Source of the DNA: Phycisphaeraceae bacterium
Lineage (GTDB): Bacteria > Planctomycetota > Phycisphaerae > Phycisphaerales > UBA1924
Reading direction: 5' to 3'
NCBI GenBank assembly: GCA_019636655.1
Contig: JAHBXB010000007.1
Location: 62,001-126,000, forward strand
Length of the DNA stretch: 64,000 nucleotides
The position numbers and the translations under genes were made by a program. The notes under the pieces were generated by a model that was not told the DNA's origin, searched no databases, and worked only from the letters and a program-made list of their open reading frames with translations. Every line of letters begins with the position of its first letter. Within the stretch, counting starts at the first letter, position 1. Shown here piece by piece: positions 39,547-53,146 of this stretch.

Positions 39547-41595
39547 TTAGCAGCCGCCAGAGTTCAGCGCCGCGACCCAGGCCTGGATGAACCCGGCAAG
39601 GTCAGCGGGGGTGATCTGCGGGTCGGCGTCGAAGTTCGTCCGCGTGGTCGTTCCGGAGACATCGGCCACCCACTGCTGGACGTAAGCCGCGATGTCGGCG
39701 GGCTCGATGGTGCCGTTGCCGTCCCAGTCGGCGGGGCAGGCGGTGGTGCCGTAGATCTTGAGTTGCCACGAGTTGAACGTGCCGCTGTCGGCGGGCCCCT
39801 GCTCGTCGGAGATCGAGACGGTCCAGACGCCGTTGCTGCGCTCGTCCCAGCAGCGAGCCGTGGTGAAGACGAAGCCGGTGTAGTTGTCGGTGGGGTCCGG
39901 GTGCGGTGTGGCGAACTCCGAGACGGTGCCGGAGGGGGACGTGAGCGTGACACGCAGGTCGCCCACGGCGGTGTGGGAGACGTTGAGCACGAGCTCCGCG
40001 GTCTCGACGTTCAGGAACGAGCCGACGAGGGTCGTCCGGGTGACGCCGGGAGTGCTGGCATTGGGGATCGGCGTGGCAACGTTGAGGAGCGGCGTGGCGA
40101 AGGACTGCTCGGGCTGGACCAAGGGCCAGGCCTGCGCGAGCGAGACGGCCGCGGCGGCGTCGACGGCGCCAAAGCCGTAGTCGTACGAGATGCGGCGGCC
40201 GGCGCCGTTGAGCCGCCAGCCGGGGCTGGACGCGTCGGTCCACCTGGCGGTGCGGACAAGGATGTGCTTGACGTCGCGCCAGGTCAGCGCGGGGCGGGCC
40301 TGGAGCATGAGGGCGATCACGCCGGCGACCTGCGGCGACGTGGCGCTCGTGCCGCCGAAGCCGTTGCCGAAGGTGTCGGTGCCGGTCGTGGTGTAGATGG
40401 ATGGGTGGATGCCGTCGGCGTTGGACGGTGCGACGATGAACATCGAGGCGCCGGTCTCGTTGTAGTACGCGCGCACGCCGGTGTTGTCGACCGCGCCAAC
40501 GGCGATGACGTAGCGGGACGAGGCGAAGGGGTCATAGTCGAGCCGGTCGAAGACCCCGCCGTTGCCCGCGGCCCAGCAGAAGACAGTGCCCTTGCCGCCA
40601 CGGCCAGTGGCGACGGCCTGGGCGAGGGCGTCGCGCTCCGCGGCGGTGAGGTAGGTGATCAGGCCGTTATCGAACGGGCCCCAGGAGTTGGTCTTGATGA
40701 AGTTCACGTCGTTGCGAAACCCAAACGCGGTGACGTGATCAACGCTGGTGGAGCCGCGGTACAGCTTGGAGACCTTGGCGCCATAGGCGACGCCGGCGCC
40801 GAAGAGGCCGTTGTTCCCGGTCGCCGCGACCAGGCCGGCGACAGACGTGCCGTGCCCGGTCAGCCCGCTCCCGGCCATGCTCGACGCGGCGTCGTAGTTG
40901 CTCAGGATGTCAGGGTGGGTAGTCGAGTAGCCGTCCTCCACGACGGCGACGGTGATCCCCGTCCCGGTAAAGCCGGCGTTCCACGCGGGAACGACGTTCA
41001 CATCGATCGTCCCCGGCGCCAGGCTCTGGAGGTGCCACTGCAGGGAGAGGCTCGGGTCGTTGGGTGTGCGGAGCGGCATCGGGCGGGCGATGTCGACGTA
41101 CGCCTCCTCAACGGCGCCGCCGGCGCGCAGGGCCGCGGCGAGGGCCGCCGCAGAACGGACGGATGGGGCGGTGGCGATGTGCCAGCCAGAGAGCGAGGCC
41201 ATGGGAGCGGCGGTGGCCTTGGCGGCATCGAGCACCGGCTGCGCGGCACCGAGGTTGGCGGCCTTGATCAAGACGGTGTTGGTGATGGTGTAGCCGGGCG
41301 TGGGGGCCGGTGCGGGGTCGGCGGCGGTGGCCATGTCCGCGTTGTCGCGGGCGGCAGGGCTGGTCGGGGCGTCAGGGGTGTCGATCAGGAACGCCTCGGA
41401 CCCGGCGCCGGCCCACAGCACGATGCGTTCCGGGGCCAAAGCGACAGCCTTCGCGTTCTTGGTAGGCCCGGCCGCGGCGCGGACGTCGGACGATCCGGTC
41501 GATGCGGCCGCACCGCACGCCAGAATAAGGACAGAAAGCACGGAGGCCGGGACGCTCAGACCGGCAGCGAGTTGACTCATCATGGTCGTGCGCAT
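39547..41595 (-). CDS. Secreted subtilisin-like protease (S8) with P domain and dockerin-like tail
   Basis: A 682-residue secreted serine protease. ATG at 41595 opens a signal peptide ending near ACGAAAS. The catalytic triad is present: Asp221 (VVEDGYSTTHPD), His248 (TGHGTSVAG) and Ser417 (GGTSATSPQVAG), with the oxyanion Asn in CWAAGNGG. A P/homo-B domain follows (about 515-620; LTSPSGTVSEFATPH and DSGTFNSWQLKIYGT). The last 60 residues have two dockerin-like units ending in SGGC, the same style as the 11539 product. Probably degrades extracellular protein. Confidence 0.93.
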   Translation of the reverse strand: MRTTMMSQLAAGLSVPASVLSVLILACGAAASTGSSDVRAAAGPTKNAKAVALAPERIVLWAGAGSEAFLIDTPDAPTSPAARDNADMATAADPAPAPTPGYTITNTVLIKAANLGAAQPVLDAAKATAAPMASLSGWHIATAPSVRSAAALAAALRAGGAVEEAYVDIARPMPLRTPNDPSLSLQWHLQSLAPGTIDVNVVPAWNAGFTGTGITVAVVEDGYSTTHPDILSNYDAASSMAGSGLTGHGTSVAGLVAATGNNGLFGAGVAYGAKVSKLYRGSTSVDHVTAFGFRNDVNFIKTNSWGPFDNGLITYLTAAERDALAQAVATGRGGKGTVFCWAAGNGGVFDRLDYDPFASSRYVIAVGAVDNTGVRAYYNETGASMFIVAPSNADGIHPSIYTTTGTDTFGNGFGGTSATSPQVAGVIALMLQARPALTWRDVKHILVRTARWTDASSPGWRLNGAGRRISYDYGFGAVDAAAAVSLAQAWPLVQPEQSFATPLLNVATPIPNASTPGVTRTTLVGSFLNVETAELVLNVSHTAVGDLRVTLTSPSGTVSEFATPHPDPTDNYTGFVFTTARCWDERSNGVWTVSISDEQGPADSGTFNSWQLKIYGTTACPADWDGNGTIEPADIAAYVQQWVADVSGTTTRTNFDADPQITPADLAGFIQAWVAALNSGGC

Positions 41596-41897
41596 GGCGT
41601 TGGTCGGATCTTGCGGGTGGGGTCGCTTGGGCGTCCGGTAACGCCCGTCTGGCAGGCGGCACAGGGGTGTGTGGTTTTTGTGCGTATCAGCCGATCGGCA
41701 GTATTCGAGTGTACTCACATCTCTTCGCAACGCCAGTCCAATCGGTTTGGCGGGTGTGGCGAACGCGTTACCAACGGCGCCGACGGACCGAAAGTTCGCA
41801 GAGCCACGGGACGCCGGGTCCTAGAACCATGTCTACTTCTTGCACGACGGTCGAGCGGTACCGGTTCGTCCGCGCGTCCTAATAGGATGCAAGCATC
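41596..41897. other. Divergent intergenic region, subtilase / sigma factor
   Basis: About 300 bases between divergent genes. It holds a perfect 6-bp hairpin (GGGCGT, loop CCGGTA, ACGCCC, 41629-41646) in the likely 5' leader of the protease. A short imperfect palindrome around GAGTGTACTC lies near 41710. A TAGGAT box (41883-41888) precedes the sigma gene. No coding sequence or RNA gene was recognised. Confidence 0.5.
41883..41888 (+). promoter_or_regulatory. Candidate -10 (TAGGAT) 9 bases before the sigma gene
   Basis: TAGGAT ends 9 bases before GTG 41898. Its AGGA could also be a Shine-Dalgarno, so the reading is ambiguous. Confidence 0.3.
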
Positions 41898-42569
41898 GTG
41901 GCCCCTCGCGACATGGATTCAGGGATGGAAGCGGCGCCAACGCGACCTGCGTTCTCGGGGAGGTCGGGGTCGCCTGCGCCGATTCCGCGCCTGGACCAAG
42001 CCATGTTCGCCACCGAGTACCAGAACGCCCACCGAGCCCTGTGGTGCATCGCCGCCGGCGTGCTGGGCGACCGTTCAGGGGCGGCGGATGTCGTGCAGGA
42101 CGCCGCCGTGACGGGCCTGCGCAAACTGCACGAGTTCCAGCCGGGCACGAGCTTCCTGGCGTGGATGGCGAGGATTGTGCGATTCACGGCGATCAACCAG
42201 CGCCGCAAACACCAGCGTCATCGCACCGGGGGTGTTGATCCATCGGCCCTGGATGCCACTCCGGGGCATGGCCCCGGCGTCGCGTTCGCCCCGGTGGTGA
42301 ACTCCCGAGGCGAGATCGTCGCCGCGGAAACTGTGTTCGATGACCGCATGCTCGGTGCGCTGCACGAACTCACGGAGCAGGCCAGGGCGTGCCTCCTGCT
42401 GCGGGTGGTTCTGGAGATGCCCTACCGGGATATCGCCGTGGCGCTGGACATTCCCGAGGGGACCGCGATGAGCCACGTCCATCGCGCGCGGCGGCAGATG
42501 CGAGCATCCCTCGCCGGATCGGGGCCGGCGAGCGCGGATGGCCAGAGACCGAAAGGGGGGAGTTCGTGA
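41898..42569 (+). CDS. ECF-type RNA polymerase sigma factor
   Basis: A 223-residue sigma-70 family factor. Region 2 is seen as FATEYQNAHRALWCIAAGVLGDRSGAADVVQDAAVTGLRK with the linker FQPGTSFLAWMARIVRFTAIN. Region 4 follows (LHELTEQARACLLLRVVLEMPYRDIAVAL then IPEGTAMSHVHRARRQMR) for -35 recognition. A spacer of about 50 residues between them is longer than usual. GTG 41898 and ATG 41913 are both possible starts. Its TGA overlaps the GTG of the next gene, a probable anti-sigma factor, so the pair is translationally coupled. Confidence 0.9.
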   Translation: MAPRDMDSGMEAAPTRPAFSGRSGSPAPIPRLDQAMFATEYQNAHRALWCIAAGVLGDRSGAADVVQDAAVTGLRKLHEFQPGTSFLAWMARIVRFTAINQRRKHQRHRTGGVDPSALDATPGHGPGVAFAPVVNSRGEIVAAETVFDDRMLGALHELTEQARACLLLRVVLEMPYRDIAVALDIPEGTAMSHVHRARRQMRASLAGSGPASADGQRPKGGSS

Positions 42570-43399
42570 GTCAACCGATGAACGAGTCCGATGCACGTAT
42601 TGAGTCGTACCTCGACGGCACGCTCGTCGGCGCCGAACTGGCCGCGTTCGAGGCACAACTGAGCACCGATGCTGCGCTTCGGTCGGCTCTGGATGTGCAA
42701 CTCCGGCTCGATGCGAGGCTGCGCGCGGTGTTCGCGCCCCCGCCGATGCGAGCCGTTAAAGCTGCTCCCGAGATAGAGTCGAGCCTGGACCTCGAGCCCG
42801 AGTCGGCCCCGGCTCCGCGCAGTGCTCCGCCAGCGCCGATGAAAACGGTGGAGGCGCCCGACCCCGCTGCCCACACATCCGGTGCAGCGACCGGCCGCTG
42901 GAGGCCGAACCGCGTGCACTACGGCGCGATCGCCGCGGTCGTGGCGATCGCCGGCGGGATCGGCGTGTACCTCGCGGCGTTCTCGACATCGGGCCCGTCG
43001 GGCGGCGAGGGCGCCAACCCGTCGCTGACGGCCACAGCGATCTACTCGGCGCAAGGGGCCAAGTCGTGGACGCCGGACTGGGCGTGCAAGGACGATGAGG
43101 AGTTCAAGGACACGACGCGCAAGGCGCTCGGCCGCGCGGTGCTCTTCCACCCGGCCAACGGCGTGGCGCTGGTCGGTTGGACGTACGGCCAGTCGCCGTT
43201 GTCGGGGTATACCTCGATGCTGCTGGCGAAGGTCGAGGGGCGGCCGGTGCTGGTGCTGATGGGCAAGTCCGGCGACGACGCGAGGGTGCCGGGCGGGGCG
43301 GGGCTGAACGTGTTCAAGCGCAGCCTGCCCGGGGTTGTGATGTACGAGATCACACCGCTGGATCGATCGGCGGTGATCGATCACGCGTACGAGCCGTAG
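42566..43399 (+). CDS. Probable membrane anti-sigma factor
   Basis: A 277-residue protein whose GTG overlaps the sigma-factor stop, with AGGGGGG just upstream. Residues 1-60 (ESDARIESYLDGTLVGAELAAFEAQLSTDAALRSALD) match the N-terminal helical part of anti-sigma/zf-HC2-like proteins but lack the His-Cys-Cys zinc site. One membrane helix follows near 112-133 (YGAIAAVVAIAGGIGVYLAAF). The C-terminal part is an extracytoplasmic domain with Cys and Trp (SWTPDWACKDDEEF). Topology and position suggest it holds the sigma factor at the membrane until a signal; inferred. Confidence 0.75.
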   Translation: MSQPMNESDARIESYLDGTLVGAELAAFEAQLSTDAALRSALDVQLRLDARLRAVFAPPPMRAVKAAPEIESSLDLEPESAPAPRSAPPAPMKTVEAPDPAAHTSGAATGRWRPNRVHYGAIAAVVAIAGGIGVYLAAFSTSGPSGGEGANPSLTATAIYSAQGAKSWTPDWACKDDEEFKDTTRKALGRAVLFHPANGVALVGWTYGQSPLSGYTSMLLAKVEGRPVLVLMGKSGDDARVPGGAGLNVFKRSLPGVVMYEITPLDRSAVIDHAYEP

Positions 43400-43433
43400 C
43401 GGCGCGCCCTCCACAGGACCGGGCGCTCTCGGG

Positions 43434-43439
43434 TAGGCT
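43434..43439 (+). promoter_or_regulatory. Candidate -10 (TAGGCT) 8 bases before cls
   Basis: TAGGCT ends 8 bases before the cls ATG and no Shine-Dalgarno is present, so cls may also have its own leaderless transcript besides read-through from the sigma operon. Confidence 0.4.
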
Positions 43440-43447
43440 GGCGCGCC

Positions 43448-44881
43448 ATGCTCCCGCACGACCCAACCACCTGGACAACCCTCTACTTTGCCTCGGAGTG
43501 GGTCATCCGCCTGATCATGATCGTGGTCGTTCCGTTCCGGCGGACGCCCGCCGCGGCGAAGGGGTGGCTGCTGCTGCTGTTCTTCCTGCCATGGCCGGGG
43601 CTGATTCTTTATCACCTCATCGGGCGGCCGACGTACCCCAAGTGGCGGCTGGACCAGGTCGCGAAACTGCCGCCGGTGGCCGAGCCGATCCGCGAGCGGA
43701 TCAGCCAGGCCGGGTTCGTCGCCGAGCCTCCGCTCCCCGAGTCGCTGGCGCACGCGAGCCTGCTGGTCCGGAACCTGGGTCGGATGCGGCCGCTCGCGGG
43801 CAACTCGACCGAGATCATCGACCGGTACGACGCCTGGATCGACCGGCTGGTGGCGGACATCGACAGCGCTGCGCAGAGCGTGCACCTGATGTTCTACATC
43901 TTCGCAAACGACGCCACGGGGATGAAGGTGATCGAGGCGATCCGGCGCGCGACCGCCCGCGGCGTGGCCTGCCGCGTGTTGATCGACTACCTGGGCTCGT
44001 CTCGTTGGCGGGCAGGGACGCTCGCGGCGCTGCACGCGGCAGGAGCGGAGGCCCATTGCTCGCTGCCGGTGAAGATGTTCCATCCACGGGCGCGGCTGGA
44101 CCTGCGGAACCACGCCAAGATCGCAGTGATCGACGGGGCGGTGGCGCACACCGGCTCGCAGAATATCGTGGACTCCACGTTCAAGCCCGGGCTTGCGTAC
44201 GAGGATCTCATGGTCCGGCTCGTCGGCCCCGTGGGGCTGGAACTGCAGGCGCTCTTCGCCGCGGATTGGTTCCTTGAGTCCGGGAAGATGCTGGACCTGG
44301 AGGGGCACTTCCCAGCGCCGGACAAGGCGGGCAGCGTCGATGCCCAGGTGCTGCCGAGCAGCCCGGATTTCCCCGTCCCCAACGTTCAGCGGCTGGTGGT
44401 GGCGCTGATCCACGCGGCGAGGGAGCGGGTGGTGCTGACCACCCCGTACCTGGTCCCCGACGAGGCGCTCCTGCAGGCGCTGCAGACCGCCGTGCTGCGC
44501 GGCATCGAGGTGCACATCGTGGTCGCCAGCCAGCCCGACCAGGTGCTGGTGTGCCTGGCGCAGCGATCCTACTACGACGAACTCCTGAGCATGGGGGTGG
44601 TCGTGCACGAGTACCACGCCAGGTTCCTCCACGCCAAGCACGTGAGCATCGACGGCGAGATCGCCCTGATCGGGTCGAGCAATATGGACATCCGCTCATT
44701 CGTGCTCAACGCCGAGGCGGTCGTGGTCCTGTACGACAAGGGAGTGACGGCCGACCTGCGCCGCATCCAGGAGCGATATTTCGCCGAGAGCAACCCGCTG
44801 GATCTGGAGGTGTGGCGGCGGCGCCCGCTGCGCCGGAAGATCGCGGAGAATCTGGCGCGGCTGATGAGCCCGCTGCTGTAG
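43448..44881 (+). CDS. cls: Cardiolipin synthase (phospholipase D family)
   Basis: A 477-residue membrane enzyme that forms cardiolipin from phosphatidylglycerol. Two N-terminal helices (about 15-50) precede two HKD motifs: HAKIAVIDGAVAHTGSQNI and HAKHVSIDGEIALIGSSNMD, both complete. Length and order match ClsA. It follows the anti-sigma gene by 48 bases. Its substrate is made by PgsA-PgpA encoded at 22.2-23.6 kb. Confidence 0.95.
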   Translation: MLPHDPTTWTTLYFASEWVIRLIMIVVVPFRRTPAAAKGWLLLLFFLPWPGLILYHLIGRPTYPKWRLDQVAKLPPVAEPIRERISQAGFVAEPPLPESLAHASLLVRNLGRMRPLAGNSTEIIDRYDAWIDRLVADIDSAAQSVHLMFYIFANDATGMKVIEAIRRATARGVACRVLIDYLGSSRWRAGTLAALHAAGAEAHCSLPVKMFHPRARLDLRNHAKIAVIDGAVAHTGSQNIVDSTFKPGLAYEDLMVRLVGPVGLELQALFAADWFLESGKMLDLEGHFPAPDKAGSVDAQVLPSSPDFPVPNVQRLVVALIHAARERVVLTTPYLVPDEALLQALQTAVLRGIEVHIVVASQPDQVLVCLAQRSYYDELLSMGVVVHEYHARFLHAKHVSIDGEIALIGSSNMDIRSFVLNAEAVVVLYDKGVTADLRRIQERYFAESNPLDLEVWRRRPLRRKIAENLARLMSPLL

Positions 44882-44909
44882 ACTTCGCTATCGCTAACGA
44901 GCCCAGGCG

Positions 44910-46037
44910 ATGTCTCATCATCATCATCATCATCAGCAGCAGCAACAATCTCCCGCCGAACCTGTGCCCGAATCCGCCGAGGGCGTCGTTGAGGATCGTG
45001 CGACGCAACGGACGGGCTGGCGGCGCAGTCTCGCTCTGGCGGGTCTGAGCGTGCTGTGGCTCTCGCTTGTGATCGCGGCGTTGTGGTCCGTCGGCGCGAT
45101 CCTCTATTCCAACCTGCCCTGGGCCTGGGTTCGGGTGACGCTCACGGGGGTTTTCATCGTCGGGTGCGTCGGCCTTGCCGGGTTCTACCCGCGTCGCCGC
45201 AGTGCCCTGGTGATCTTCCTTGGGGCTTTCGGGGTCGTGCTCATCTGGTTCCTGCTGACGCCGGCGTCCAACACGCGGGACTGGATGCCTGATGTGGCGG
45301 TCGCGCCGTCGGTGCAGATCGACGGTGATCGCGTGACGATCCGCAACGTCAGGGACTTCGCCTACCGCTCCGAGGCTGACTACGACGCCAGGTACACCAC
45401 CCGCACCGTCGATCTCTCCCGCCTCAAGAGCATCGACCTGATCATGTCCTACTGGGGCCCGACGCTGATCTGCCACACCTTCGTCACCTTCGGGTTCGAC
45501 GACGGGCAGTTCCTGTGCTGCTCCATTGAAACGAGAAAGAAGAAGGGCGACGAATACTCCGCGATCCGCGGGCTCTACCGCCAGTACGAACTCATCTACA
45601 TCTGGGCCGAAGAGCGGGACGTGATCGGGCTGCGGACCAACCACCGGGGCGAGGAGGTGTTCGTCTACCGCCTCGAGTTCAAGCCCGAGCGGCTCCGCCG
45701 GATCTTCCTCGACTACCTCGACCGGACCATCTCGATGGAGACCCGGCCCGAGTGGTACAACGCCGTCACCAACTCCTGCGGCATGAACATCATCTACAGC
45801 GCCGCAGCACGCCGGCCGTGGATCCCGCTCAAACCGAACCTGCTGATGAACGGCCGGTGGGACCGGGTGATCTACGAGTCCGGCCACTTCTCAACGCCGC
45901 TCCCGTTCCCGGAGTTCCGCGCGCAGAGCCGGGTGAACACCAGGGCCCAGGCGGCCGAGGGCTCCACCGAGTTCTCCGCCCGGATCCGCGAGGGCCTGCC
46001 CTCGATCCCCGCCGCGCCGACCCGCCCGGGCGGGTGA
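44910..46037 (+). CDS. DUF4105 membrane protein with natural His6-Gln5 N-terminus
   Basis: A 375-residue protein 28 bases after cls, likely in the same operon. It begins Met-Ser then six His and five Gln. Three membrane helices follow between about residues 40 and 125 (LSVLWLSLVIAALWSVGAIL, VRVTLTGVFIVGCVGLAGFY, VIFLGAFGVVLIWFLL). The remainder is a DUF4105/Lnb-type periplasmic domain: DLIMSYWGPTLICHTFVTFGFDDGQFL with a Cys-His pair, and later YNAVTNSCGMNI with the second Cys. These look like a papain-like Cys/His active site, suggesting a hydrolase or acyl transfer role. AGCCCAGG is the only weak Shine-Dalgarno. Confidence 0.85.
   Translation: MSHHHHHHQQQQQSPAEPVPESAEGVVEDRATQRTGWRRSLALAGLSVLWLSLVIAALWSVGAILYSNLPWAWVRVTLTGVFIVGCVGLAGFYPRRRSALVIFLGAFGVVLIWFLLTPASNTRDWMPDVAVAPSVQIDGDRVTIRNVRDFAYRSEADYDARYTTRTVDLSRLKSIDLIMSYWGPTLICHTFVTFGFDDGQFLCCSIETRKKKGDEYSAIRGLYRQYELIYIWAEERDVIGLRTNHRGEEVFVYRLEFKPERLRRIFLDYLDRTISMETRPEWYNAVTNSCGMNIIYSAAARRPWIPLKPNLLMNGRWDRVIYESGHFSTPLPFPEFRAQSRVNTRAQAAEGSTEFSARIREGLPSIPAAPTRPGG
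44916..44948 (+). repeat. (CAT)6-(CAG/CAA)5 trinucleotide tract
   Basis: Six uninterrupted CAT codons followed by three CAG and two CAA, directly after the second codon of the DUF4105 gene. It is the clearest simple-sequence tract in the window. Confidence 0.95.
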
Positions 46038-46049
46038 CCCCGGCCGGAG

Positions 46050-46826
46050 TCAGGTGAAGAACTCAACCTGCGCGGTCTCAAGGTTGTACATGGCGCCGAC
46101 CATGTCGAGGGTCCCCTTCCGCTCCATCTCGTCGAGCACCGGGCTCTGGGCGCGGATCACGTCGATGGTCATCGACACGTTCTTCCGCGCGACCGCGTCG
46201 ACGAAAGCAGGGTTCTTTGAGGTCCGGTCCCCCTCGAACTCCGTCGCCTCGACCGCTGGCCGGATCTTCGCGAGCAGCCCGGTCAGGTTGCCGAGCGTGG
46301 CGTTGTCGATCGCCCCCTTGATCGCGCCGCAGGCCGTGTGGCCCATCACCAGCAGCACCTTGGCCCCGCTGACCTTGCAGCCAAACTCGATGCCGCCGAT
46401 CACATCGGCGTTGGCGATGTTGCCCGCCATGCGGGAGTTGAAAACCTCGCCGATTCCCATGTCCATGACGATCTCGGCGGGGGCCCGCGAGTCGATGCAA
46501 CTGAGGATCACGGCCTTGGGGTACTGGCCCGCGGCGGACTCCCGCTGCTCCCTCAGAAAGTCCCGAGTCTGCAGCCGGCCCGAGCGGAACCGTTCATTCC
46601 CGGCCTTCATGCGGGCGATGATCTCCTCGGGGGTCAGCGCGTCTCGCTGCTCCTTGGAGAGGGGCTGGACCGTCCGGCCAAGAGCGACGCCGGACCCGAT
46701 CGCCCCGACCCCAACCAACCCCGCGGCCCCCAGAAGGGAGCCCTTCAAGAACCTCCGCCGCGCGCCGGAGTGCGCATTGCAGCACCCGGAATGGAGGCTC
46801 GCACCGGTCAAGTCAAGGGGATTCAT
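46050..46826 (-). CDS. Beta-class carbonic anhydrase with Tat signal
   Basis: A 258-residue zinc enzyme interconverting CO2 and bicarbonate. Zinc ligands are visible as Cys110 and Asp112 in SCIDSRAP, and His163 and Cys166 in GHTACG. The N-terminus carries a twin-arginine signal, ARRRFLKGSLLGAAGLVGVGAIGSG, so the protein is probably exported folded. AGAAAGG lies 9 bases before ATG 46826. It is convergent with the DUF4105 gene (12-base gap) and divergent from the tRNA-Thr/tuf block. Confidence 0.94.
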   Translation of the reverse strand: MNPLDLTGASLHSGCCNAHSGARRRFLKGSLLGAAGLVGVGAIGSGVALGRTVQPLSKEQRDALTPEEIIARMKAGNERFRSGRLQTRDFLREQRESAAGQYPKAVILSCIDSRAPAEIVMDMGIGEVFNSRMAGNIANADVIGGIEFGCKVSGAKVLLVMGHTACGAIKGAIDNATLGNLTGLLAKIRPAVEATEFEGDRTSKNPAFVDAVARKNVSMTIDVIRAQSPVLDEMERKGTLDMVGAMYNLETAQVEFFT

Positions 46827-50074: not shown

Positions 50075-50722
50075 ATGTCCGACAAGAACGCTACGACCGA
50101 CAGCCAAACCGAGGGTGCCCCGGAGCGGGCCGGTGTGATCACCGGCGACGATCCGATCCGGCAGGGTGATATGAACTGGTTCGTGCTCCGCGTCGCCTCC
50201 AACAAGGAGTCGTACGTCCGCGAGACGCTGCTGCGCAAGGTCCAGATCGAGGCGATGCAGCACCTGGTCGGCCGAATCCTGGTCCCCACCGAGAAGACCA
50301 AGACCGTCAAGGGCGGCAAGCAGCGGATCGTCGAGAGCAAGCTCTATCCCGGCTACGTCTTCGTCGAGATGCGCCTCGAGCCCGACGGCCGTATCCCGCA
50401 GGACGTGTTCTTCCTCATCAAGGAGACGACCGGCGTCGGTGATTTCGTCGGCACCGCGGGGCGCCCCACGCCGATGAAGGACCACGAGATCGAGAAGATG
50501 CTCATCGATTCTCGCAAGCCCGAGGACCAACCGACTGTCAAGCTCGTCTTCCAGAAGGGCGAGAACGTCCGCGTCAAGGAGGGCCCCTTCGAGGGCTACG
50601 AGGGGACGGTGGACGAGCTGTTCCCCGACAAGGGCGTCGTCCGCGTGCTGGTCACGATCTTCGGCCGCCAGGCCCCAATCGACCTCGAGGAGTGGCAGCT
50701 GGGCAAGGCCGACGAGGTCTGA
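50075..50722 (+). CDS. nusG: Transcription termination/antitermination protein NusG
   Basis: A 215-residue RNA polymerase-binding factor. The NGN domain starts MNWFVLRVASNKESYVRETLL and includes ESKLYPGYVFVEMRLE. The C-terminal KOW domain reads KGENVRVKEGPFEGYEGTVDELFPDKGVVRVLVTIFGR. ATG 50075 is chosen for the GGGAAAGGG upstream; a GTG at 50024 would add 17 poor residues. The first 30 residues before the NGN domain are a short polar extension. Last gene of the tuf-nusG block. Confidence 0.96.
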   Translation: MSDKNATTDSQTEGAPERAGVITGDDPIRQGDMNWFVLRVASNKESYVRETLLRKVQIEAMQHLVGRILVPTEKTKTVKGGKQRIVESKLYPGYVFVEMRLEPDGRIPQDVFFLIKETTGVGDFVGTAGRPTPMKDHEIEKMLIDSRKPEDQPTVKLVFQKGENVRVKEGPFEGYEGTVDELFPDKGVVRVLVTIFGRQAPIDLEEWQLGKADEV

Positions 50723-50978
50723 TCCGACAGGCCGTCTCCACCCGTCCGCCGAAGGCCGTGACCGCGTGTCCGCGCCGTCCGCACAGGCCGCGCGACCGGA
50801 TGCGATCATCCATCCCACGAACCCCGGTTCGAGGCCGCTCCGCGCCCTGTATCTCATGTCTGGAGTACAGGCGCCCGTGATGCTCGGGCGCGATGGGAGT
50901 CAAGATGCGCCCGGGGGTGGGGCGACGACGCCCGGACCGCGCTGCGCACCCTCCCCGGGCCAACGCAGGGGACACGTC

Positions 50979-51911
50979 ATGGCGCGCGGAACTCACGGCA
51001 GGAATGCGGCGGTGTCGGCAGCGGGGATCATCGCTGTGGCGGGGCTCACCGTCGTCTCCCTTCCCGGCACCGGCCGGGCGCTCTCGAGCGATCCCTACGC
51101 CGACCTCCCGGCGGCCATCACGCTCGCCGGGACCGTGCGGGACTTCCGCGCGGCGGGAACGCCCGGCGGCCACGCGGACTTCGAGGCCTACAACACCGGC
51201 CACCGCGTCGGCCTTGTCGCCGCTGAACTCGACGCCGACGGCAAGCCTGTCTACATCGGCGAGGGCAAATCGGTCCAGACGCAATACCGCGACAGCCGCG
51301 GCCGCAACATCATGCCGGCGATGTACGACCAGTCCAAGGGCGACGCCGCGGGGGCGCTCGCCTCCCCCTCGTCACGGGCCGTCACCTCCCAGGCGACGAT
51401 GGCGCAGTGGTGGCGGGACGTGCCGGGCACGAACATGGCCAAGTCGCACTCCATCGTCCTCTCTCGCCAGCCCAACACGAACATCTACAGCTTCCACGAG
51501 CAGGACAACGAGTCCACCGCCGAGCGAGAGGGCTTCTTCCCCGCCGATAACGACCTCTACAACGACATGAACCCGACCTACCACCACAACTACCACTTCA
51601 CCTACGAACTCTCGACCCGGTTCGTCTACAAGCAGGGCGGCGGCCAGACCTTCACCTTCGTCGGCGACGACGACGTGTACGTGTTCATCGACGGGAAGCT
51701 GGCGATCGACGTGGGCGGCGTGCACAGCGCCGTTTCACAGACGGTCGACCTGGACCGCTTCGCTTCCAAGCACGGCCTGCGCGACGGATCCACCTACTCG
51801 CTCAAGTTCTTCTTTGCCGAGCGGCGGACCACACGGTCCAACTGCCGCATCGATACCACCCTGTTCCTGCTCCCAGCCGAGCTGCCCAAGACGGCGTTCC
51901 TGTTCGATTGA
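50979..51911 (+). CDS. Fibro-slime domain secreted protein (copy 1)
   Basis: A 310-residue exported protein. ATG 50979 has GGGGA 8 bases upstream and opens a signal peptide (AAVSAAGIIAVAGLTVVSLPGTGRA). The mature chain starts with LPAAITLAGTVRDFRA and ends with the fibro-slime (TIGR02148) core FTFVGDDDVYVFIDGKLAIDVGGVH, about residues 226-250. The SLKFFFAERRTTRSNCRIDTTL ending is a PA14-like fold. Named from Fibrobacter and Dictyostelium extracellular proteins; probably binds polysaccharide or forms matrix. A terminator follows. Confidence 0.88.
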   Translation: MARGTHGRNAAVSAAGIIAVAGLTVVSLPGTGRALSSDPYADLPAAITLAGTVRDFRAAGTPGGHADFEAYNTGHRVGLVAAELDADGKPVYIGEGKSVQTQYRDSRGRNIMPAMYDQSKGDAAGALASPSSRAVTSQATMAQWWRDVPGTNMAKSHSIVLSRQPNTNIYSFHEQDNESTAEREGFFPADNDLYNDMNPTYHHNYHFTYELSTRFVYKQGGGQTFTFVGDDDVYVFIDGKLAIDVGGVHSAVSQTVDLDRFASKHGLRDGSTYSLKFFFAERRTTRSNCRIDTTLFLLPAELPKTAFLFD

Positions 51912-51945
51912 CCCCTCGGCAGGATTGCCAATCAAGGCGCACGTG

Positions 51946-51972
51946 CCCCCGCGCCCCACGGCGGGGGTTTTT
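51946..51972 (+). terminator. Terminator after fibro-slime copy 1
   Basis: CCCCCGC/GCGGGGG stem of 7 bp with an 8-base loop, followed by five T. Confidence 0.9.
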
Positions 51973-52207
51973 CTTCGGACCTGCCCGCAGAACCTCGCGG
52001 CAGGGATCGAGGGCCGGCCGTGCAGACCGCACAGGTTCGCAGCCTCCCGCCGCGATCACCCCCAACCCCCTTGTTCGCCCACCGGTGAATCGTACATCTG
52101 AAGGTGAGCGGTCGACGTTCGACCGGCCTGCCCGAGGGGGGCCGTGCAGGGAGCCAAGCCGGGCCGACTGCCGCTGAAGGCAAGGCCATTGAACGAGGAG
52201 CCTGACT

Positions 52208-53146
52208 ATGAACCGGCAGTCCAGCAGCGTGTTTGCTTCGGTTTCGGTGCTCGGTGTGTTGGCGGCCGCCGGGCTCGCGATGGTCTCCGCCCCGCACTCC
52301 GGCGCGGCGGCGACGGCGGATCCCTTTGAGCACCTCCCGACGTCGCTGACGCTCTCGGGCGTGGTCCGTGACTTCAAGGAGCTCTCCGTCTCCCAGGGCG
52401 GGCACGCGGACTTCGAGCGCACCCCCACCCGCGGCTTCGGCATGTACGCCGGCGAGGTCGCCGACCAGCTCGACGCGGACGGCAAGCCCGTGTTCCAGTC
52501 GACCGGCTACAAGGTCTCGACCCAGTGGCGGGACTCCATGAACCGCAACATCTCGCCTCCGCGCAGCCACATCGCGGCCAAGCCCGGCGACATCGCGGGC
52601 GTCAAGGAGACGAGCCTCGGCGGCTCGACGACCAACGCCGAGAACTTCGCCAAGTGGTTCCGGGACGTCCCCGGCGTGAACATGGCCGCCCCGTACGCCG
52701 TCACGCTCAAGCGCCAGCCCAACTCGAACATGTACACGTTCGACGACAAGACCGACGAGCTCTTCAAGGGCCGCGGCGGGTTCTTCCCCATCAACGGCGA
52801 GCTCTTCGGCAACTCAAGCGGCGAGACGAAGAACTTCCACTTCACCTACGAGATCGACACGCGATTCGTGTACAAGCGCGGCGCCGGCCAGGTCTTCACC
52901 TTCACCGGCGACGACGACGTGTTCGTCTTCATCGACGGCAAGTGCGTCATCGACCTGGGCGGCGTCCACTCGGCCGTCAGCCAGACGATCGACCTCGACC
53001 GCCTGGCCTGGTTGCAGGACAACAAGACCTACTCGCTGAAGTTCTTCTTCGCGGAGCGCCACCGTACGCAGTCCAACTTCCGCATCGACACCACGCTCAC
53101 GCTGTTGCCGGCTCAGCTGCCGTCGGCCGCCGCGGTGTTCGATTGA
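52208..53146 (+). CDS. Fibro-slime domain secreted protein (copy 2)
   Basis: A 312-residue paralogue of the preceding gene. GAGGAG lies 8 bases before ATG; signal peptide VLAAAGLAMVSAPHSGAAATA. It shares the layout LPTSLTLSGVVRDFKE..GGHADFE, WFRDVPGVNMA, RQPNSNMYTFDD, FTFTGDDDVFVFIDGKCVIDLGGVHSAVSQTIDLDRL (split here by family) and SLKFFFAERHRTQSNFRIDTTLTLLPAQLP. The ID to copy 1 looks high at the C-terminal half and lower in the middle. Own spacer of 296 bases and own terminator, so the two are separately expressed. Confidence 0.88.
   Translation: MNRQSSSVFASVSVLGVLAAAGLAMVSAPHSGAAATADPFEHLPTSLTLSGVVRDFKELSVSQGGHADFERTPTRGFGMYAGEVADQLDADGKPVFQSTGYKVSTQWRDSMNRNISPPRSHIAAKPGDIAGVKETSLGGSTTNAENFAKWFRDVPGVNMAAPYAVTLKRQPNSNMYTFDDKTDELFKGRGGFFPINGELFGNSSGETKNFHFTYEIDTRFVYKRGAGQVFTFTGDDDVFVFIDGKCVIDLGGVHSAVSQTIDLDRLAWLQDNKTYSLKFFFAERHRTQSNFRIDTTLTLLPAQLPSAAAVFD

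Follow-up and report, generated by a model that had tools for sequence, protein, structure and literature searches.

The 64,000-nucleotide stretch of DNA analyzed here (herein referred to as the window; contig JAHBXB010000007.1 of a Phycisphaeraceae bacterium whose 3.66 Mb genome, G000, is assembled in 8 contigs) carries four consecutive plus-strand genes that encode an extracytoplasmic function (ECF) sigma factor, its putative anti-sigma factor, a cardiolipin synthase (cls) and a protein of the DUF4105 family. The explanation that we favor for this locus as a whole, at somewhat better than even confidence, is that the first two genes constitute an ECF module with a regulon of exported proteins and that the two lipid-related genes are read through from the promoter of the module in this genome. 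The layout is as a first-pass annotation, made from the letters of the window, had described it: the sigma factor gene (41925–42569, counted from its probable start codon) and the anti-sigma gene (42566–43399, a function assigned from position, overlap and conservation) share a GTGA overlap between the sigma stop at 42569 and the anti-sigma start at 42566, and are followed after 48 bases by cls (43448–44881) and after another 28 bases by the DUF4105 gene (44910–46037).

The first gene product is an ECF sigma factor. It scores above the Pfam cut-offs for Sigma70_r2 (45.9 bits) and Sigma70_r4_2 (55.4 bits), with no region 3 match among the Pfam matches listed, and above that for TIGR02937 (sigma70-ECF; 69.5 bits, cut-off 42.9), the one model to exceed its own cut-off in the top 25 of the 80 NCBIfam matches. 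The neighboring anti-sigma protein matches no family above cut-off (zf-HC2 is weak, at 14.3 bits against a cut-off of 22.2); the Hx3Cx2C motif of zinc-type anti-sigma factors is absent and the N-terminal part of the protein is devoid of cysteine. A reading of the sequence gives a single hydrophobic stretch, and an alignment of relatives shows this stretch together with a conserved N-terminal block, again with no library match above cut-off. The C-terminal domain, which likewise has no library match, contains one cysteine that is invariant across 14 aligned relatives.

The two genes form a conserved module that recurs in the planctomycete class. Within the order, 31 of 151 genomes contain a match to the anti-sigma protein; within the class, 333 of 397 match its profile, many over the first half only, and the 37 class matches that span most of the profile were used. 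Three sets of loci (20, 10 and 37) and the window give 68 sigma/anti-sigma loci, many with only ~1.5 kb per side and the shortest with 271 bases of downstream sequence, and the relatives searched include no other species of the source genus. A sigma homologue lies directly upstream in all of the first 20 loci, in most of which the two genes overlap by ATGA or GTGA, and adjoins the anti-sigma gene in 67 of the 68, the exception (L039) being cut by a contig end.

Comparison of the regions upstream of the sigma gene yielded the motif GCAA-N18-ACAT in 18 of 21 regions, compared with a mean of 0.29 and a maximum of 3 in 200 shuffles. The GCAA/ACAT pattern was picked after the matches in these 21 loci had been viewed and was then tested on 47 more, 45 of them usable, of which 38 carry it; overall, it precedes the sigma gene in 56 of 66 usable loci (50 shuffles: mean 0.66, maximum 4), and four loci of genus g40 have a spacer of N19 instead of N18. 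A count of exact dyads of 5 + 4 bases was also tried and discarded (7, against shuffle maxima of 5–7, barely above chance). A putative promoter motif shared by this sigma group, which the first-pass annotation had proposed looking for upstream of the operon, is present in the window as an exact match on the plus strand at 41889–41914 (extended form TGCAAG ... GACAT), whereas with one mismatch allowed the motif is not above chance in the window alone (14 found, 19 expected). The ECF sigma factor would recognize this motif, and the module probably switches on its own operon. Because the motif spans the GTG at 41898, which had been taken as the sigma start, and its -10-like part lies downstream of that codon, the start is more probably the ATG at 41925 (42003 being an alternative), which would make the transcript almost leaderless. 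No announcement of this promoter or regulon was found among the titles and abstract starts listed by searches of open-license literature.

Beyond the sigma genes, the pattern TGCAAK-N16-GACAT occurs at 87 sites in 21 module-bearing genomes, with at least one site per genome, against 7 for the reversed control. A control pattern whose two halves are set one base farther apart gives 35 sites against 8 for its own reversal; because this wrong-spacer pattern also outnumbers its reversed control, a count of loose matches in G000 (39, against 11 for the reversed pattern) was set aside as evidence, and the comparison of spacers is the better control. Among the 71 right-spacer sites that were inspected, 4 are intragenic and 40 precede a called gene by no more than 260 nt (in two cases a sigma gene); among 30 inspected wrong-spacer sites, 21 are intragenic and 4 are upstream, including 2 true spacer-19 sigma promoters of genus g40. 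The spacing of the motif therefore matters. The 71 sites include two near-identical pairs (L312/L333 and L340/L342) from the ends of contigs in a single genome, each probably one place counted twice; the context genes were called with codon scores learned from the window, an approach that overlooks some genes and start codons, and many of the target proteins are truncated at locus ends.

The genes behind these sites include exported proteins with FG-GAP repeats, with CHRD plus GSDH domains or with HAF repeats, and members of an unnamed family. By a simple rule, a hydrophobic N-terminus is present in 23 of 40 targets and in 167 of 401 background genes, and several targets have dockerin-like or PEP-CTERM-like ends (10/40, compared with 34/401 in the background). 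G000 itself has four consensus sites, one at the window operon and three elsewhere (L211, L215 and L220), and all of the latter precede proteins with motif-bearing relatives in other genera: the GSDH protein of L211 is 58–63% identical over aligned stretches to five targets from two other genera, the unnamed exported protein of L215 (site 53 nt upstream) is 47–55% identical to three targets from two other genera, and the FG-GAP protein of L220 (site 131 nt upstream) is 27–31% identical to three targets, the weakest of the three cases because FG-GAP is a common repeat family. This agreement across genera is the strongest sign of a true regulon, and the distribution of the motif suggests a regulon of surface proteins rather than a conserved lipid response.

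The third gene product is a cardiolipin synthase by its equivalog score and its two HKD motifs (TIGR04265, 333 bits against an equivalog cut-off of 290, full length over residues 11–477; HxKx4D is read twice in the sequence). G000 has a second cls above cut-off at C1:386807–388249. The window copy is 47% identical to its best relative, from another family of the order, and 41% identical to the other copy of its own genome; in a 32-row tree, made from the 29 best loci, the window copy and two entries for the other G000 copy, it sits on a long branch without a supported sister. It is thus like its family in length and motifs and differs in being a divergent paralogue placed behind a sigma pair. 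An assignment of this phospholipase D-type protein to DrmC of the DISARM system was considered and rejected, since the NF038319 score (72 bits) is below the cut-off of 133; the PADLOC DrmC models also match weakly, at no more than 72 bits.

The fourth gene encodes a DUF4105 protein, a member of PF13387 (115 bits against a cut-off of 22.2), which today bears the name Lnb_N; in it, three predicted helices (30–66, 71–89 and 96–116) precede the Lnb_N domain (159–308). The first-pass annotation had suggested a Cys/His enzyme, and indeed the predicted catalytic residues H189 and C290 are kept in 81 of 81 sequences. At the N-terminus, positions 44910–44950 encode a His6Gln5 run, a CAT/CAG-type repeat, and the start could be slightly downstream. 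The best solved structural neighbor of the DUF4105 model (mean pLDDT 73.7) is TseH (6v98; Z 7.8, rmsd 4.1, 149 residues), to which model residues 170–365 align. The two differ in that identity is 7% and that the DUF4105 protein is predicted to be membrane-anchored, with no sign of a secreted effector. Aichivirus 2A is also in the structural list (Z 4.3); most other rows were disregarded because they align to the long helices at the N-terminus. TseH and DUF4105 are grouped among permuted NlpC/P60 lipid-active enzymes in a published report (PMC12994826).

That report also describes DUF4105 as the lipoprotein N-acyltransferase of Bacteroides (PMC12994826), and one alternative is that the window protein serves as the cell's own lipoprotein N-acyltransferase in the manner of Bacteroides Lnb, the operon then tuning lipoprotein acylation. 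The window protein shares with Lnb the Lnb_N domain and the invariant His and Cys. It differs in its three helices before the domain and in its kin, which are often near lipases. The Pfam name implies that in Bacteroides Lnb the periplasmic domain comes first and the membrane part lies behind it. No match to the second Lnb family was found in the window protein. DUF4105 is present in 6 of 61 genomes, whereas Lnt is above cut-off in 57 of the 61, including all six with DUF4105 (in G000 at 224.6 bits, cut-off 132.9), and this coexistence within the order suggests a role other than lipoprotein N-acylation. With Lnt present, the idea of DUF4105 as its substitute was rejected as the main interpretation, and the acylation-tuning alternative as a whole is highly improbable.

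The best named matches of the window DUF4105 protein are to Desulfuromonadales-type metagenome-assembled genomes (MAGs; 46–47%) and to a Phycisphaerae MAG (45%), and it is 29–41% identical to five proteins of its own order; no relatives in viral contigs were confirmed. Among the best 80 of 208 confirmed loci of this three-helix DUF4105 subfamily (L112–L191; flanks of up to 8 kb, many of them short), 35 from several phyla have a lipase or esterase gene on the same strand, with ~2.3 kb or less between the gene midpoints; 21 of these encode an alpha/beta hydrolase, 7 a DUF900 hydrolase and 7 a patatin-Omp85 protein. The alpha/beta hydrolase neighbor scores just below the Pfam cut-off (25.8 against 26.3) and the other two well above theirs; in two further loci a DUF900 gene is farther away and on the opposite strand. 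A lipid-metabolism context of DUF4105, with repeated displacement by Lnt, is also reported there (PMC12994826), so this context as such is already known; our locus draws notice to the members of the DUF4105 family that neighbor lipases across several phyla, and a lipid-related role is likely. Additionally, a DUF4105 open reading frame at L074:6437–8335 is preceded by EamA-type transporter domains, which may reflect a gene fusion or an artifact of assembly. A different context is shared by a set of planctomycete-type MAGs (L177, L181, L183, L184, L186 and kin), in which a gene for a YceI-domain protein and one for a 264-aa protein precede DUF4105; most of them also have, farther downstream, a GGDEF-EAL gene on the opposite strand.

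The first-pass annotation had read the four genes as a sigma-controlled change of membrane lipid composition, perhaps an envelope stress response, and had proposed conservation of the gene order as a check. The gene content and order of the window and the sigma-group motif upstream are in keeping with such an operon, as is the lack of a motif or terminator-like site between the genes. However, the order is kept in none of the 67 other sigma/anti-sigma loci, where at least 271 bases of downstream sequence hold no cls or DUF4105 homologue, and in none of the 80 DUF4105 loci, whose flanks hold no sigma, anti-sigma or cls homologue. This refutes conservation, and elsewhere the motif marks many exported proteins; no other lipid gene was recognized behind 37 of the 39 loose matches in G000 on the basis of the first 60 residues of the called genes. 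A conserved envelope-stress operon that alters lipid composition is therefore very unlikely, and an envelope stress response through lipid remodeling would at most be particular to this genome.

On the explanation favored here, the lipid branch was added in this lineage and did not belong to the ancestral module. No copy of the motif with at most one mismatch at spacer 18 precedes cls or DUF4105, and a scan of 41400–46300, which uses a single consensus and is insensitive, finds no sigma70-like site anywhere and no terminator-like site in either gap; its two terminator-like sites are both within cls and do not exceed shuffles. Because the gaps lack all three kinds of site, read-through from the sigma promoter is the simplest route of expression, and it is plausible on these grounds. 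The four-gene run ends at DUF4105, since the next gene, for a beta-carbonic anhydrase (46050–46826, minus strand), is convergent. The main rival is that cls and DUF4105 are a two-gene lipid cassette with a promoter of its own that lies behind the sigma pair by chance. Chance adjacency is possible because the lipid genes adjoin the pair in this genome only; their absence from all 67 other sigma loci, the sporadic occurrence of DUF4105, its recurrence near lipid-active enzymes without a sigma gene, and the signs that both genes may be late additions (the long cls branch and the closer matches of DUF4105 to the named MAGs than to the five proteins of its own order) all speak for it. The single strand, the short gaps and the lack of sigma70-like or terminator-like sites within them speak against it, and we regard an independent cassette as a tenable but doubtful account.

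Several observations weigh against the explanation that we favor, namely an ECF module with an exported-protein regulon and read-through into the lipid genes. The motif is missing from 10 of the 66 usable loci; 27 of the 71 inspected sites lie outside genes and have no called gene within 260 nt, and the site of L211, 285 nt upstream of the GSDH gene, is beyond that limit. The apparent enrichment of exported targets is modest, the hydrophobic N-terminus rule fires also on two control sigma genes, and a DHQ-synthase-like enzyme family recurs five times as a motif target. Co-transcription of cls and DUF4105 is presumed from the arrangement of the genes, and the 48-base gap could accommodate an unrecognized promoter, since the scan knows one consensus. 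As for the structural comparison, the Z of 7.8 to TseH falls in the middling range by the tool's own scale, and a Foldseek search with the DUF4105 model returned no match at E ≤ 0.001.

We hypothesize that the anti-sigma factor, with its hydrophobic stretch and sensor-like C-terminal domain, holds the sigma factor until a signal from outside releases it, the sensing step being suggested by this architecture. The freed sigma factor would act at GCAA-N18-ACAT (41889) to transcribe its own operon and, through the same promoter elsewhere, a few genes that mostly encode exported proteins. A divergent cls and the gene of an Lnb-like DUF4105 enzyme have come to adjoin the anti-sigma gene in this genome and are most likely expressed by read-through from the sigma promoter, such that switching on the module may provide more cardiolipin and a membrane enzyme that handles acyl chains alongside the exported proteins. 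The promoter motif can be read in many genomes, which gives an orphan sigma group testable targets, and the locus suggests how unrelated outputs attach behind one switch.

The module resembles systems of the RpoE-RseA and SigW-RsiW type in its sigma regions 2 and 4, its overlapping anti-sigma gene and the motif in front of its own operon; it differs from them in that the anti-sigma factor lacks the N-terminal Hx3Cx2C and has a C-terminal domain without library match, and in that the motif is GCAA-N18-ACAT with mostly exported proteins as targets. A stress-type regulator is also tied to cardiolipin synthase in Bacillus anthracis, where envelope stress is reported to induce a cardiolipin synthase through EdsRS (PMC8144471); EdsRS is a two-component system, whereas here the regulator is an ECF sigma pair whose link to cls is by position only.

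Possible outputs other than lipid genes are found behind the anti-sigma gene in other genera. A second copy of the motif lies on the same strand at most 110 nt past the anti-sigma stop in 8 of the 68 loci, and in a ninth (L109:5808–5833) it overlaps the stop. In five species of genus g40 (L092:6381–6553, L095:6524–6706, L098:5703–5878, L099:7394–7575 and L036:2054–2228), this second promoter leads into a conserved stretch of ~105 nt that comprises a hairpin and then a terminator-like stem; the copies in other genera (L106:6481–6506, L107:7197–7222, L029:2086–2111 and that of L109) are without the g40 hairpin. The next gene is on the opposite strand in L092, L098 and L099, and in L095 a distance of 433 nt separates the stretch from the next gene on its strand. 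Within the family of G047, an RNA model of the stretch (R1) finds it in 5 of 6 genomes, which all belong to genus g40, and each time beside the anti-sigma gene; G047 yields an additional weak match (33.4 bits); the stretch was not found beside the anti-sigma gene in the single sister-genus genome searched, and 55 further sources gave only two weak matches at E ≤ 1, both in the window (18.6 and 13.8 bits). The eight second-promoter loci have no Rfam match at the gathering threshold. Because double-sided changes occur at two base pairs only, the g40 hairpin rests on conservation and energy more than on covariation, and we consider the stretch, which was seen in genus g40 only, a candidate for a small RNA that depends on the sigma factor. 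MicA and RybB, small RNAs controlled by RpoE, are a known parallel (PMC8103513).

A broader and more speculative reading is that the module is a class-wide ECF switch for C-terminally anchored surface proteins with dockerin-like or PEP-CTERM-like ends, to which individual lineages have added outputs behind the anti-sigma gene: cls and an Lnb-like acyltransferase in the window, and a structured small RNA with a sigma-type promoter of its own in another genus. In that case, the lipid genes would adjust the membrane to the exported proteins. We advance this generalization tentatively, as a possibility that the odds do not favor.

Upstream of the sigma gene, the divergent neighbor in the window is an S8 protease (39547–41595, minus strand), included as context only, whose end resembles a GC-type dockerin at a score below cut-off (20.8 bits against 29). 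Elsewhere in the window, a NusG gene is followed by a tandem pair of PA14-domain proteins (50075–53146). In the same genome, L224:872–2452 (G000:C5) encodes a reverse transcriptase closely related to the DRT8 defense family (461 bits); the motif also matches strongly on the antisense strand of this gene, probably by chance.

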